A stretch of 64,000 bases of DNA from Buxus sempervirens (lineage: Eukaryota > Streptophyta > Magnoliopsida > Buxales > Buxaceae): NCBI GenBank assembly GCA_947561395.2, contig OX387184.1, positions 4,216,001-4,280,000 on the forward strand, given 5' to 3'. Below the pieces are notes generated by a model, which had not been told where the DNA came from, searched no databases, and saw only the letters and a program-made list of their open reading frames with translations. The translations under genes and the position numbers were made by a program. This document shows, piece by piece, positions 42,845 to 57,407 of this stretch (position 1 is its first letter; each line of letters starts with the position of its first letter).

Positions 42845-43254
42845 CCTTGTTTGGCTTTCATTCCAGATTAGGAACTCATTCTGAGAATGAGTTCTTAAAA
42901 CTCATTTTGCGAATCAATTTTGAAGTCTTTCTAATTGCGTTTGATTAGCACGTAGCAGAATGAATTTTCACCTAGAAAACTGTTTGGTTAACAAGTAATA
43001 AAATGAGTTCCATGAAATTTGTTTTTCCCTTTTTTTTCTTTTTCCATGAATAATTATAAGAAATTGGTTGATCCTTGAAAGATAAAACTTGAAACACCTA
43101 AGAAATGAAAAACAAAAACAAAATAAAGGATGGGTTTGCTGATTATGTCTATTAATTTAAAACATATAATGATAGCAATTATTAGTAAAGTCACAAAGTC
43201 CTATCACATCCATAATTTATAGCAAAGTTCATTACATTAATACAAATAATACTC

Positions 43255-44584
43255 TCAAGGGCATTCACTATTGCAAGCATGCAATATAGCTTCAGCAATT
43301 GATTGTCTAAATGCATCCATCCTCCTTATTCCTTGTTCTTGTATTACACCATCTGGATCTGGTTCATCATCAATGTGCTCTTCTTCAATAATTAAATATT
43401 CTTCTTCATATTGACTAAATAACTCATCTCTCAATGTTTCTTGTCTAATGAAGTTATGCACAGTACATGTAGCAACTACAATATTTCTTTGTGTTGGAAA
43501 TGAGTATGGAGGCATTCTCTTAAGAATAGGAAAGCGTGCCTTCAACACACCAAATCATCGCTCGATTACATTCCTCAATGATGAATGAGCATGATTAAAT
43601 AACTCTTTCACTCCACTTGGTGAGCTACCTCGTCTATAGTCTGGTAGATGATAGCGCACTCCTCGATATGGTGCAAGAAAACCCGGCATGTTTGGATATC
43701 CAGCATCAACAACATAATACTTTCCTAATAAAATAATAACATATTTAAATAAATTGGATATTTAAAAAAAGTTATATATAACTGTAAAATTTATTTACCT
43801 TCAAGGGTTTTTGGAAAGTTCAAATGTGGTTTATGTATAGCCTCCAAAAGAATTCTTGAATCATTAGCTGATCCCTCCCAACCAACATAAACAAAGGTGA
43901 ATCGCATATCAAAGCCACATGCAGCCATCACATTTTGGGAAATATTTGACTTCCTATCTCGATAAGGAATTTGCTTCTCAGTAGAAACCACAACATCAAC
44001 TAAAGAGCCATTAATTGCACCAATACAATCCTTCACAAGATAAAAAATATAAAATTAAAATAGAAAAAACAATGCTAACTATTTAAACAAAATTTCTATT
44101 TAGTATATACCTTGAACCATGGATAATGCTTTGGATTCTCGCGAATTTCTATTGGAGTATGAGCAAATGACAGGGGCGCTATAATTTCTTGTGCAAACTT
44201 GACAAAAGCTAATAGCACCTTATTAAAGTGACGGCTTATTGTTTCACCTGAATGTTGAAACCTTTCTTGCATGATTCTGTTTCTTTCATTATGTCCAATA
44301 GTTAGAAGAAAAATAGCTAATTGCTCTTTCACAGTTACTCTTCGTGTGTCTTTTAATAATTCACGCTCACGAAGAGCACAACATAAGTTTCTAAACACAT
44401 GTTTATCCATTCGAAACGAATCATAGCATCTTACAGGATGACCAGTTAATACTTCTTGTACATAAGCATGCCCTGTAAGAAGAGAAACATGACATGGTTC
44501 TTTACAAAGAAACAAATCCATGTAATTTTGTATTGCTGCTGCACTAGCTAAGTATAACAACACCTCTTCATCATCTGAGTCCAT
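43255..44584 (-). pseudogene. PIF/Harbinger DDE transposase (DDE_Tnp_4), disabled
   Basis: Three exons: 44111-44584, 43799-44030 and 43255-43724, 391 codons. The N-terminal part holds the helix-turn-helix-like region (RMDKHVFRNLCCALRERELL, QHSGETISRHFNKVL). The catalytic part has DCIGAINGSLVDV, GWEGSANDSRILLEAI, VDAGYPNMPGFLAPYRGVRY and RNVIER. In active relatives the first catalytic Asp lies in GAIDG; here it is Asn (GAINGS). An in-frame TGA at 43555-43557 follows RNVIER, where relatives carry a codon before FGVLKARFP. Both changes predict loss of activity. Otherwise the frame is clean, so the insertion is fairly young or recently inactivated. Confidence 0.88.
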
Positions 44585-44878
44585 TATAACTGTTACATAA
44601 AGTCATCCACAAACATAAATATAAATATAAAATAAATAACATATACCTAAAGAACAAAAGTCGTGTGTAATTCAAAAAGATCATGTTTTTTATGATCATT
44701 GTTCATTAAATACAAAAGATCATGTATAACTATTACAAAAAGTTATGTATAATTTCTAAACCCAAAAGATCATGTAGAGTTTGTCATATTTGTATAACAA
44801 AAGGAAAAAAAATCTTTCTAATCACATATAAAGTTCCAAAATATTTTCTTTGTAGTTTCCAAAAAGTGCAACTTCATA

Positions 44879-45862
44879 CTAAATTGAAGTCATTCGTGAC
44901 AATATCCTCTTCAACCATATGATACACATCTCTGGGTTTAGCTCTATGAAGGTCTCCCTTGTAGCAGGATTCTGAAATGCATCAACTGCATTCATAAACA
45001 TCTCGCTTCCCTGTGTTATCTCACTCATTTTCATCAAATACTCAATACAAGCACCAATGGAGAACTTGTCAACTTTTGTCTCATTTCTTTCCATTTTTGC
45101 TTGAGCGAGGTTCACTAGGCCAGAAATAGCCTGAGTCAACTCAGACGACCTTGAATCTTTTTTATATCGTCTAGCTGCAGAAGGTGCTTCAAGTGGTCTT
45201 TTGCGTCGACCACTCCCACTTCTCTCATATTGAATTCCAATATCATTATCTTGAGTCTCCAATTGTGATGTTGGAGATGCATCTGGAGTGCATGGAACTG
45301 GTGAATCAATTTGTACAACGTCATCGCCATTATCATTTGGTAAGCTATCTTGTGAAGGGGGCCAACTTGCCTCCCTAGTCGCCATGGTACCACCAAATAT
45401 AATGCACAACTCATTGTAAAATAACAACGGCTTCTTGTGAAATTGAGCTGCATCTGGGTTTGCCTGTTAGTAACATTTTGTTATGATGTGTCACAATAAT
45501 AAAAATAATTTCTCTATTTAAAACTAATGTACCTTTATATAATCATTCCACTTTTTAGCCGATGTAGAAAATGTTCCAAGCTCGTCATCCCAACCCATTC
45601 CACTGTTGTCTATTAACTTCTTCCATGCACTCCAAGCTCTTCTCAGTGAACTATAAAGATTTTTCAATTGGGCTCTATCATATTGTAGATGGGTTTTCAA
45701 ATTGAATTCCTTATTTATTGTTGCCCACCCAGACTTGTTGAAACTTGAGCCCGGCCTATTGCCATCAAGCGTCTGCTCTAATGCAAGGTCGATAAAAATC
45801 TTTTTCAAATCATCCGACCAAAAGGCTTTATTTTTAGCCTTTGATGTTTGTTGCGTTTCCAT
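44879..45862 (-). CDS. PIF/Harbinger ORF1, Myb/SANT-like DNA-binding protein
   Basis: Two exons, 45533-45862 and 44879-45463, encode 304 residues without a stop. Residues 10-110 form the trihelix/Myb-like domain (Myb_DNA-bind_3 type): FWSDDLKKIFIDLALEQ, GWATINKEFN and LKNLYSSLRRAWSAWKKLI. A linker and a Lys/Arg patch (GSGRRKRPLEAPSAARRYKK) follow, which could be a nuclear signal. By family knowledge ORF1 works with the transposase to bind element ends and enter the nucleus. The same orientation as the transposase with about 290 bp between them is usual. The intact frame here may still act on related MITEs if another active transposase exists. Confidence 0.85.
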
Positions 45863-46091
45863 GAATCACTGAAACATAAAAGTAATAACAAGAGATGCTA
45901 AGTTAGAGTAATTACATGGAATCTTTAGTAATTACTTGAATATAACTGACCTACTGGAAATAATCTAGCTTCTATTACATAGTCCAGGTTTTGTGTTGAA
46001 GGAATCTAGTTAGCCAGTTATTATTTTTGATTTTCAATATATGGTCAGAACCTTGTATATTACAGAAACCATTGGCTTCAGATGATAGGTT

Positions 46092-51400: not shown

Positions 51401-51862
51401 TCAGTAGTGAAACATGTCTGGAGAAGCCATGATGGGTTGATTCATGTTGAGCAAACTCCAAGGGTTCATGAAGCTATCAGAACTGGTATAAGGATCCACA
51501 GGTTCAAAGATAGTATTGCAAGCGTTTATGTAGGTGACGATCTCATTGAGAGATTGTAATCTGTTACTCAACTCCGCCGTCTGAGCTCTTAAGATTGAAT
51601 TATCGGCCTCAATGTTCAAGTAGTGTTGAGTGGTGATGTTCATGGTTGTAAGGATCTGATTATTCTCTTTCGTGAGTTGAGCCACTTGGGCCATCAAATC
51701 ATCCAAGTGCTTCTGTTTTCGCATCCTGGATCGCCTTGCCGATTCACGGTTCGACAGCATTCTCTTCCTTTTCCTTTGATCCATCAAAAACTGGAGGTCC
51801 TCTTCAGAACCAGAGTTCGGAAGCAGAGAAGACACCGAAGAAGTCCCACTAGAGGAAGCCAT
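51401..51862 (-). CDS. bZIP11: S1-group bZIP transcription factor (bZIP2/11/44 type)
   Basis: An intronless frame of 153 residues. The basic region is RKRKRMLSNRESARRSRMRK (residues about 30-49) with the N-x7-R core. A leucine zipper follows at seven-residue spacing (LDDLMAQVAQLTKENN through LRAQTAELSNRLQSLNEIV). The C-terminus NQPIMASPDMFHY is typical of bZIP11/44. By family knowledge these factors dimerise with group C bZIPs, bind ACGT elements and control amino-acid and sugar metabolism under low energy; translation is repressed by sucrose through a leader peptide. The long leader here holds that peptide and flanking uORFs. The symbol denotes the subgroup; bZIP44 is equally possible. Confidence 0.93.
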   Translation of the reverse strand: MASSSGTSSVSSLLPNSGSEEDLQFLMDQRKRKRMLSNRESARRSRMRKQKHLDDLMAQVAQLTKENNQILTTMNITTQHYLNIEADNSILRAQTAELSNRLQSLNEIVTYINACNTIFEPVDPYTSSDSFMNPWSLLNMNQPIMASPDMFHY

Positions 51863-52013: not shown

Positions 52014-52052
52014 CTATAGGAAGTAAACGCGTCTAGTCGACAGCTGATTCAT
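52014..52052 (-). CDS. Short downstream uORF, overlapping the SC-uORF stop as ATGA
   Basis: The frame MNQLSTRRVYFL begins at the ATG formed within TCATGA, so its start overlaps the stop codon of the sucrose-control uORF by the ATGA arrangement. It ends at TAG 152 bases before the bZIP start. It could capture ribosomes that resume scanning or reinitiate. Functional weight is unknown. Confidence 0.5.
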   Translation of the reverse strand: MNQLSTRRVYFL

Positions 52053-52228
52053 GAAAAAACGTAGAACCAGTAGAGGAAGACGACAGAGAAAGACTGAACT
52101 AGGTATGAGAAAACATAGAACCAGTAGAGGAACACAACAGAGAAAGATTGAACTAAATGGGTCCTGCGTCTAAGAGTCGAATTTATCATAAAACCCAACC
52201 GAAGGATTTCACTGAGAACTAGAGGCAT
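52049..52228 (-). CDS. Sucrose-control uORF with tandemly duplicated arrest segment
   Basis: A 59-residue leader peptide. Residues 1-41 match the conserved SC peptide of S1 bZIP genes (MPLVLSEILRLGF, STLRRRTH, LVQSFSVVFLYWFYVFS), which normally ends at that point. Here residues 42-59 repeat the last 18-codon segment (Y plus the same 17 residues), then TGA. Copy 1 is 52106-52159 and copy 2 is 52052-52105. Between them six codons differ synonymously (L, Q, V, V, Y, F) and only the first residue differs (H/Y). In Arabidopsis bZIP11 this peptide stalls ribosomes at its stop codon when sucrose is high and so represses the main frame. The start used is the ATG at 52226-52228, since the next in-frame codon upstream that looks like a start is TTG. 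Confidence 0.9.
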   Translation of the reverse strand: MPLVLSEILRLGFMINSTLRRRTHLVQSFSVVFLYWFYVFSYLVQSFSVVFLYWFYVFS

Positions 52229-52262
52229 GAATCTCAAACATTAAGAACAGTATATTAAGCAT
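52209..52262 (-). CDS. Upstream uORF overlapping the SC-uORF start
   Basis: A 17-residue frame (MLNILFLMFEIHASSSQ) begins 34 bases before the SC-uORF ATG and runs over it in another frame. Ribosomes starting here would bypass the SC-uORF start, so it may set how often the SC peptide is made. Multiple uORFs around the SC-uORF are usual in this gene group. Confidence 0.5.
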   Translation of the reverse strand: MLNILFLMFEIHASSSQ

Positions 52263-52731
52263 CAAGACTAGCAAGAGAAGAAAACACCGGCCTTGGGGAG
52301 AAAAATTGGAATTTTTTTAGGTCAAAAACCCCAGATCTCAACAGATGGGGTTTCAGAAATGATCGAAAACCGATCTTTCAAGCCACCACGATCCGTTCGA
52401 GACGAACAAAGCGACTGATAGACGGAAGAAAAATTCCTGTTTCGACCAGTTTAGCAGCAAAAGATCCTAAAATTCCACGGGGTCTCTCAGTTTTGGATCT
52501 CAACACCAAAACAAGGCCCTCAAAATCAGAAACGCCAACAGCAAGTAGACGATCCCAACCCAAAACCAAAGAGAAGCAGAGGAAAGCGAACTTCAATTCC
52601 AAAGCTACGGAGCTTCAGAACCTCAGATCTCTGAGAAGGATCTGGACAGAACCAGAAGACAGGGAGACTCCCAAACGCCTTGGGGAAGAAGAGGGAAAGA
52701 GTAAGAGGTTTTGCGATTGTTTCAGGGTGGG

Positions 52732-52739
52732 ATTTATAG
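52732..52739 (-). promoter_or_regulatory. TATA box of the bZIP gene (candidate)
   Basis: The minus strand reads TATAAATC. It lies upstream of all the leader uORFs and predicts a start near 52705, giving a leader of about 840 nt, as expected for S1 bZIP genes. The leader itself (51863 to about 52705) has no other long ATG-started frame in this orientation. Confidence 0.5.
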
Positions 52740-53474
52740 AACAAAAAAGGGCACAACCATTTGAAGACAAAAAAAAAAAGAAATAATTTCAACCCTTATT
52801 AAACCCCATAAGAAAAAAAAAATTGGAAAAGGGTAATTGAGAAAAGCAAAGGGCTTTGGAATCTCCTCTAAAAGTTGTTGAGCAAAAGACGAAGATGATG
52901 AGTGATGGATGGAGCATGTGGGAGTGAAAGCGAAATTCCCACAGCTATGCAACCTCCAGCTGGTCTGCAACTACTAAAAATCCAGAAAATCTCTGGCACA
53001 TTTTCACCTCTCTTTCACCACCTGTTCCGTACGAATTTTACCATTTCAGCTTGGATGTAATTACGAATAAAGGTGCGGAGAATTTAGTCAATTAAAATTT
53101 GGGACTTGGAATTTGCCAAAGAGACGAAGCATTGTCAAAAGTACCGTCCCGTCTATCAGGCAATTCGTAGGGGTAATCATGTCTTTTAGGTTCAGACAAG
53201 ATCCCTTTGGGGTTCAATGCTTTCAGTACTTGTTTGTTAGTGCCTGATACGTCGTGGAGGCCGGGAAGACAAAAACAAAAAAAATACCACCTCTGGCTCC
53301 GATGGTTCGCGGAATTCACAAAACCGCTCATTAAAATCTCCACCCAGAGTCCCACACCGCCGTTTTCATGTATCCTCACGCACCCTCAATTCTTAACAAA
53401 GTTTCGTGGGTCTCACCTCAATCATGACTACTAATATAGGCATTCGGGATTGACATGTTACCCCAAAATTTTGA
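52740..53474. other. bZIP promoter region
   Basis: Non-coding, with mixed composition. It contains several GA/CT stretches and ends at a MITE-like inverted repeat. No other gene is seen. Confidence 0.45.
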
Positions 53475-55456: not shown

Positions 55457-56579
55457 TGCAAGCTTCATCATCGTTAATTGATCCATATGCTGATTACTAT
55501 GTCATCCAACAGAAAATGGTATATATATATATATTGCATTTGGTCCCTTTAATATACATAGTTACACTTTTACTAATCAGCTTAAGTTTTTAGGTGCACT
55601 AGTTGTTTAACATACTATTAGAGTAAAAGGTCTTGTGCTCGACTCGGTGTGAGACATGGAAAATCAATTTAATGACTTCCTGATCATCACACGGGATTCT
55701 TTAAAACAAGGAGTCGCCACCATTCTGTTTAGGTGTGAATGGACACCAAAATATCAAATCAAATAAAGGAGACAGAAATTAGAGTAAAGTAACTCTAAAA
55801 CAAAAACAACCAGAGATGGGTGAGGGGATTAGCTTATGAACAGGGGAAGGTGTTAGGCACCCCTATTCATCCACACAAGGTGGTTGCCAGGTATTGTTCA
55901 TGTTAAAAATAAAGAAGGTTTGCTTAAAAAAAAGAAAAAAACATAAAAATAACAAAAGTGTATGGTTTTTCATATGAATATCCCGATTAATTCAGAATTT
56001 TCAATATGATCATACCATTCTAAGGGTTTCATGATTAAAATAAAATTGAGATAAAAATCAAAGAAAACCAATCTAAAGAGAAACATGAAAAACTAGTTTT
56101 AGACTAAACCATTAAAAGGTTGAAAAACCATATTGTAATCTCTTGATTAAAACATTGAAGAATAAAGTTATTTGGAGTACAGATCTGATCCGGATCTCTC
56201 ATTAATGGAGAAATAGAACCCCTACTCAACCCATGTTGATGAAAAAACATCAAAATGGAGAGTTTAGACTATAGGATCCTTTCTCCAAGATTAAAACAAT
56301 TTCAAAATCACATTATGAAACTCTAAAGGTTACTTTCAGGCTTTTGGTTTTAGATCTACCATATAGATCATGATAGATCCAGAATCCTGGCCAAATATTA
56401 CCAAAACCAAGAGAACAGTGATGTAGGTGCAATGGTGTGAAAAATCCAAACTATAGAAAAAAGTGGGGATCTCATGCTATAAACATCATGGATTCATAGA
56501 ATCCCTCCAGATTTAGAATAAAATCATTAAAATATCAACATGATATTAAAAGCAACCATATATAACAGATTATAGTACA

Positions 56580-56870
56580 TGGGGGTCTACCCTACGGATC
56601 CACCTATTCTCTTTTCCCCTAGCTCTCTTTTCACGTTTTACGGCTAGAGAGGAGTCTTGAGGTACTTGGAGGTAGGTTTGGGGATACAAACACAATCAAT
56701 GGCTTTATTCTATAAAAAAAGAGAAAAACAAATTATAGGGTTCTATTCTAAGAATCCACCTGTTCCCTTTTCCCCTAGCTCTCTCTTCACGTTTTACGAC
56801 TAAAGAGGAGTCTTGAGGTACTTGGAGGCAGGTTTGGGGATACAAATATAAACTAGGCCTTATTCTATAG
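56580..56870. repeat. Tandem duplication within the LTR-like unit
   Basis: Two copies of about 150 bp share TCTTTTCCCCTAGCTCTC, TTCACGTTTTACG, GAGGAGTCTTGAGGTACTTG and AGGTTTGGGGATACAAA. Confidence 0.85.
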
Positions 56871-57407
56871 AAAGGGAGAAGATCTAACTATCTCTAGAAT
56901 TAAAAACAGAAAATAAAAGAGAAAATGGACTTACCTGGATTGAGAAAAGCAGAGATTCCCTTCTTCACTTAGAGCTCTTCAGGCTTCAGATTATTGGCCC
57001 TTTGCTTGAGGAGAGGCCCTCTATTTATAGGCAAACCCAGGGGCATGGTTGGTCCAAGGGATATGCCAAGATAGAGTTCCAGAAGATTTCGGATTGAGTT
57101 AAAAACAGAGATAATGCTAATCCATTGAACCATAGAGGATAAACAAGAAGATTCGAATGGATAAACAAGAAGATTCGAATCTCCCAGAGAGAGATTTGAG
57201 TGCAGATAAGGCTTAGAAATCGAGGAAGGATAAATTCGCTCAAAAATCCCGCGCCCGTATATGAATCATGGTGCTCGTATTAATAATACGGGCACAGCTT
57301 GACCGTATATGAATTACGGGCAAGACCAGACCATAGATAAATTATGGGCACTTCATGTTTGACCAGATTTTACACTTTTTTGACCTATTTCTGCACGGGC
57401 AATACTT

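Follow-up and report, generated by a model that had tools for sequence, protein, structure and literature searches.

A tandemly doubled arrest segment in the sucrose-control leader peptide of a Buxus sempervirens bZIP gene

The sucrose-control (SC) upstream open reading frame (uORF) of an S1-type bZIP gene in Buxus sempervirens encodes a leader peptide that ends in two tandem arrest segments, as had been claimed in the original prediction and as both the translation and a repeat of period 54 confirm: residues 1–41 are a standard SC peptide, and the final 18 residues are the arrest segment again. The SC peptide is known; judged by sequence comparison, the doubled arrest segment is new among the SC-like proteins examined. 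Our leading mechanism, a tentative one given somewhat less than even confidence, is that the peptide would arrest the ribosome twice in series, that is, once at each segment. The window is the whole stretch of DNA that was analysed (64,000 nucleotides), and all coordinates refer to it.

The leader and its two arrest segments

The gene and its leader contain the following features:

51401..51862, minus strand: main ORF, S1-type bZIP transcription factor, 153 aa (Pfam bZIP_1, 1.1e-10)
52014..52052, minus strand: uORF3, MNQLSTRRVYFL and stop, with its AUG overlapping the SC-uORF stop (AUGA)
52049..52228, minus strand: SC-uORF, MPLVLSEILRLGFMINSTLRRRTHLVQSFSVVFLYWFYVFSYLVQSFSVVFLYWFYVFS and stop, 59 codons plus TGA (translation)
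52052..52105, minus strand: arrest segment copy 2, YLVQSFSVVFLYWFYVFS, with TGA directly after
52106..52159, minus strand: arrest segment copy 1, HLVQSFSVVFLYWFYVFS, with RRRT before and the sense codon TAC after
52163..52171, minus strand: basic patch RRR, residues 20–22, ahead of copy 1 (translation)
52187..52189, minus strand: second in-frame AUG of the SC-uORF (M14)
52209..52262, minus strand: uORF1, MLNILFLMFEIHASSSQ and stop, in another frame and overlapping the SC-uORF start
52732..52738, minus strand: TATAAAT, candidate TATA box (sequence reading)

The S1-type bZIP main ORF by which membership of the class is judged is present downstream of the SC-uORF, starting 186 nt from the SC stop codon; the seven best relatives of its protein (72–77% identity, protein search) belong to Tetracentron, Protea, Davidia and Telopea, which points to an early-diverging eudicot. 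Two in-frame AUGs in weak context are a family trait of SC-uORFs, and both AUGs here (ATGCC preceded by AGATTC, and ATGAT preceded by GGTTTT) are in the same frame and in weak context, with no purine at −3. A paralogue elsewhere in the genome (the C12 paralogue) has a similar uORF1 and the same AUGA overlap of uORF3; the layout of the leader (uORF1, second AUG, AUGA uORF3, 153-aa bZIP) fits that typical of the gene class, and TATAAAT is a possible TATA box. Rfam gave no match anywhere in the window at gathering scores.

The aligned part of the SC-uORF is 81% identical to a protein from Gossypium (P0002), 85% to one from Dioscorea (P0005) and 92% to one from Erythranthe (P0006) in a protein search. 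The doubling appears as a direct repeat of period 54 (52051–52101 versus 52105–52155, 90% identical; TRF score 175). Six of the 17 codons that the copies share (LVQSFSVVFLYWFYVFS) differ between them, and all six differences are synonymous (copy versus copy: TTA/CTA, CAA/CAG, GTT/GTC, GTG/GTC, TAT/TAC and TTC/TTT), so the codon comparison agrees with the identity of 17 residues and the six synonymous codons first reported for this gene; the 18-codon unit opens with CAT (H) in copy 1 and with TAC (Y) in copy 2. With 59 residues and two segments, the peptide departs from the usual single segment and length of ~41–42 residues, features that are not known to be required.

Four residues of the AtbZIP11 peptide (Ser29, Ser31, Leu35 and Tyr39) are thought to be essential, and the position of the SC stop is described as invariable in angiosperms (both from the accessible part of PMC4960570). 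Mapped by hand, the essential residues are S28, S30, L34 and Y38 in copy 1 and S46, S48, L52 and Y56 in copy 2. The fixed place of the stop after the motif is found for copy 2 (TGA directly after S59) and not for copy 1. In copy 1 the usual basic context, RRRTH, is present and a stop codon is absent; copy 2 is followed by the stop codon, and FYVFS stands where the basic patch would be. The two copies are real, as originally described, and they are not equivalent in context; the lack of a stop in copy 1 and of RRRTH in copy 2 had gone unremarked.

Among the SC-like proteins, 134 of 136 were scored for these positions: 113 of them have H directly ahead of LVQ, 21 have R, Q, C, T or V there, and none has Y; in 70, the H position follows RRRT. 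The end of the motif was recognisable in 95 of 98 SC-like proteins; 64 of these stop there and 31 continue for 3 to 41 residues. These sequences show that the motif can be followed by a sense codon in nature, and some of the C-terminal extensions past the motif may be splicing predictions.

Several predicted proteins have the SC-uORF fused in frame, within or just past its motif, to bZIP or bZIP-like sequence (P0225–P0227, P0230, P0232, P0234–P0236, P0244, P0247–P0249, P0251–P0253 and P0255–P0257); these are gene-model artefacts or the products of splicing that removes the SC stop.

A second arrest segment was present in none of the 136 SC-like proteins (98 from the first search and 38 new among the best 120 of 185 matches). 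The pattern FL[YH][WF] occurs twice, besides in the query, only in P0231 and P0254, as chance matches outside the SC segment, and the viral contigs scanned contained no relative. No close relative of this plant was recognised by name among the SC-like proteins, so the count speaks neither for nor against a double form throughout a clade. Our literature searches, in which one query was too broad and subscription journals were mostly outside coverage, found no description of a doubled SC peptide. The earlier statement that no double-arrest SC peptide has been described thus holds within the literature searched and for the SC-like proteins among the matches listed.

Age and origin of the duplication

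A search of the window's own genome identified four loci elsewhere (L009–L012) that contain most of the leader. The region concerned is:

52066..52976, minus strand: gene stretch (upstream region, leader and SC-uORF to the middle of copy 2), mostly captured, inside four hAT-like elements

The captured piece spans window positions 52976 to 52066, with its break point inside copy 2. The elements are 1294 to 1589 bases long with short inverted ends, and their 8-bp target site duplications match at 7/8 bases in L009, L010 and L012 and at 8/8 in L011. The terminal inverted repeat at the 5′ end of all four elements is TAGAGCCGGCAAAA; the inverted 3′ ends start TAGAGCTGGAAA in L009 and L010, TAGAGCTAGCAA in L011 and TAGAACTGGAAA in L012. 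Terminal inverted repeats as short as these suit the hAT superfamily, and L009–L012 are hAT-like transposons, presumed to be non-autonomous.

Both arrest segments are present in all four hAT-borne copies (with copy 2 cut), and at the H/Y codon and the four captured synonymous differences the copy-1 and copy-2 bases are each in place in all four elements. Because every element contains a doubled segment that had already diverged, the duplication and its divergence predate the capture. Over the aligned stretch, the gene differs from the hAT-borne copies by 7.4, 9.7, 14.5 and 14.9%; poor alignment of the 5′ part inflates the last two values. An assembly error or recent slippage, which the original prediction had already dismissed, is contradicted by four separate insertions, each flanked by an 8-bp target duplication of its own, that all contain the diverged double segment; we rejected this explanation as scarcely credible.

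Four further copies of the hAT family (L030–L032 and L038; C6, C21 twice and C12) contain only a 42–123 nt piece of leader or upstream sequence, joined to other sequence. Elements L011 and L012 contain ~300–400 additional bases in front of the leader piece, which may be another captured fragment. The repeat at window positions 56355–57125 is also found near element L010 (78% identical over 793 bases).

Three other SC genes were identified in the genome (L013, the C12 paralogue, and L014 and L015), each with a bZIP downstream, and the SC-uORF of the C12 paralogue has one arrest segment. For the window and C12 bZIPs, dS is 0.68 and dN is 0.10 (127 codons; ORF identity 80%). The copy-to-copy dN/dS comparison that had been proposed gave a dS of 0.92 with no amino-acid difference over 17 codons, and a dS of 1.2 over 18 codons, both with a wide error from few sites. 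Because the copy-to-copy dS is comparable with the bZIP dS, the duplication would be about as old, in order of magnitude, as the split from the C12 paralogue.

Codons 37 and 39 are TTC and GTT in both copies and TTT and GTG in L013–L015; states common to both copies and missing from those three genes favour a duplication that arose in place, after the paralogue split. Gene conversion between the copies would leave the same sign. The copies might instead have been unlike from the start, that is, two diverged SC-uORFs fused by unequal exchange, and their synonymous differences would then say nothing about later constraint. The distances among copy 1, copy 2 and the C12 segment are similar, as such a fusion would have it (differences per 51 nt: 5 for copy 1 and C12, 6 for copy 1 and copy 2, 8 for copy 2 and C12); however, the shared states of codons 37 and 39 speak against it, even if conversion could mimic them, so we did not favour the fusion of two paralogous uORFs and give it only a slight chance.

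Synteny between the window and C12 by way of a shared gene at 42971–45869 was considered and dropped: the shared stretch is 96.6% identical over 2732 bases versus 80% for the bZIP ORFs, and, being far more alike than these, it is probably a repeat, which leaves synteny unsupported. Two stretches of window 42845–45933, one of 2732 bases at 96.6% identity and one of 319 bases at 94.7%, recur close to the C12 paralogue, and three translated pieces of this region had no match in Pfam. Codon 8 of the L013 bZIP ORF is TGA (MASSSGT, then stop), with an open frame from the Met just ahead of the basic region. Five C12-type leaders (L033–L037; C9 twice, C3 twice and C1) are truncated in the SC N-terminal part and are without the arrest motif.

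Constraint on the two copies

The codon differences support, and do not prove, protein-level constraint on both copies; they give the same degree of support to a 59-residue peptide that has been kept since the duplication, with both segments at the family consensus while the codons drifted. For random single changes with stops excluded, the probability that six of six are synonymous is 1.6e-4 to 9e-4 (kappa 1 to 6); over 18 codons, seven synonymous changes versus one non-synonymous give a binomial probability of 1.4e-4. When polarised by the other SC genes, codons 27, 31 and 38 as well as H24Y changed on copy 2, and codons 25, 32 and 40 are ambiguous. Because the polarisable synonymous changes are all on copy 2, the case for constraint on copy 1 depends on an equal-time argument and is less direct. 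That argument takes the copies to have begun identical and synonymous sites to be neutral; at the pooled synonymous rate, an unconstrained copy 1 would then have gained ~10 amino-acid changes, and 0 are observed; the probability of this outcome is about 0.0014, with the uncertainty of the rate allowed for.

The hAT-borne copies provide a second comparison, and in them the stretch decays. In the transposon-borne stretch, L009 has three missense changes; L010 has seven missense changes, two stops and three synonymous changes; L011 has three synonymous changes; and L012 has three missense and three synonymous changes. L011 and L012 have five inserted bases and one gap each, and the point changes in L011 are synonymous only, besides the frameshift. 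The gene in the same stretch has one missense change (S2P, outside both segments) and one synonymous change. Compared with the four transposon copies, the gene differs in the uORF at 2 of 162 sites and in the flanking leader at 13 of 325 (Fisher 0.16, not significant), and some of these differences may stem from the transposon stem, not the gene. The original claim of constraint on both copies since the duplication is favoured by the six-of-six and 7:1 counts, and it is qualified by the less direct case for copy 1 and by the uORF/flank test.

Copy 2 alone might arrest the ribosome, with copy 1 read through as tunnel sequence and retained by the open frame and limited time; the stop has kept its position with respect to copy 2, published work places stalling at the stop codon (title of Yamashita 2017), and the polarisable codon changes are located on copy 2. 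However, the need for an open frame would permit missense changes in copy 1, the 17 codons of which have none at the probability just given, and a mere spacer gives no reason for the family consensus. The exact family consensus of copy 1 is better explained by a putative role in arrest than by a role as spacer, and we judge that copy 2 is unlikely to act alone. Alternatively, sensing might rest mainly with copy 1, which retains its original RRRTH context; the 18 residues that follow would then be a tail, in which copy 2 provides a minor or auxiliary stall. The canonical length and context of copy 1, the tails past the motif in 31 of 95 SC-like proteins, and the absence of the basic patch and H from copy 2 are compatible with this division of roles; yet copy 2 has kept all 17 residues despite taking the polarisable synonymous changes, which makes a merely auxiliary copy 2 improbable.

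A proposed pair of arrests in series, and known systems

Two arrests in series, the mechanism that we prefer, starts from a bZIP11/44-type gene whose ancestral SC-uORF had one segment; this C-terminal arrest segment was duplicated in tandem and in frame (54 nt), as the sequence shows, at an age that is inferred. At high sucrose, the ribosome would first slow with Ser41 in the P site and TAC as the next codon; at Ser41 the nascent chain would equal the canonical 41-residue SC peptide in length, sequence pattern and register, and some slowing there would be expected if the stop codon is dispensable. A second arrest would occur at the TGA, with copy 2 filling the inner tunnel. Stalled plant ribosomes stack ~30 nt apart, with degradome positions at −16 and −46 (accessible part of PMC9305500); with the arrest sites 54 nt apart, two ribosomes could be held at once. 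Given room for two ribosomes, repression of the bZIP would be expected to be tighter, or to start at lower sucrose, than with one segment.

In a more specific version, the segments would be two checkpoints at which sucrose halts elongation (copy 1) and then termination (copy 2), with long selection, perhaps over tens of millions of years, sharpening or lowering the threshold; we consider this version possible but doubtful.

Against series arrest, copy 1 is without a stop codon, whereas stalling on AtbZIP11 was reportedly placed at the stop codon by Yamashita in 2017, and copy 2 is without the basic patch and has Y at the H position. With regard to the stop codon, two gymnosperm uORFs (Picea abies and Pinus taeda) with the stop elsewhere nonetheless confer repression by sucrose, according to the accessible part of PMC4960570, so the place of the angiosperm stop is not absolutely required. 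The duplication could also have separated the basic context from the stop and thereby weakened or abolished arrest, so that the gene escaped sucrose repression. The distance between the basic patch and the stop is indeed 18 residues greater than in a peptide with one segment; however, both segments were long retained at consensus and the other features of the leader were kept, and we regard such an escape as having little probability, on a par with copy 1 as the main sensor.

Whether or not arrest occurs in series, the gene naturally parts the stop codon from the basic context, copy 1 having the context without the stop and copy 2 the stop without the context. The copies thereby allow one to ask if SC arrest depends on the stop codon, on the basic residues upstream, or on both together, and the double segment is a natural test of whether a single leader peptide can stall ribosomes twice. 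A doubled segment may also be a graded means to tune sugar control in plants.

The leader resembles the SC-uORFs of S1-group bZIP genes (homology group 1; AtbZIP11, 2, 44, 53 and 1) in its place in the leader, its N-terminal part, RRRTH, the arrest motif, the second in-frame AUG and the S1-type bZIP downstream. It differs in that those SC-uORFs have one arrest segment and end there or in an unrelated tail, whereas the Buxus peptide has two in tandem. Gymnosperm S1 uORFs are of the SC type with the stop off the angiosperm position, as in copy 1 here; in contrast, they have only two of the four essential residues, and the accessible part of PMC4960570 mentions no doubled segment in them. The hAT-like elements resemble Pack-TYPE transposons, which are likewise non-autonomous DNA elements that hold captured host gene sequence (accessible part of PMC8903248); compared with those, the captured copies here serve as side evidence for the age of the duplication.
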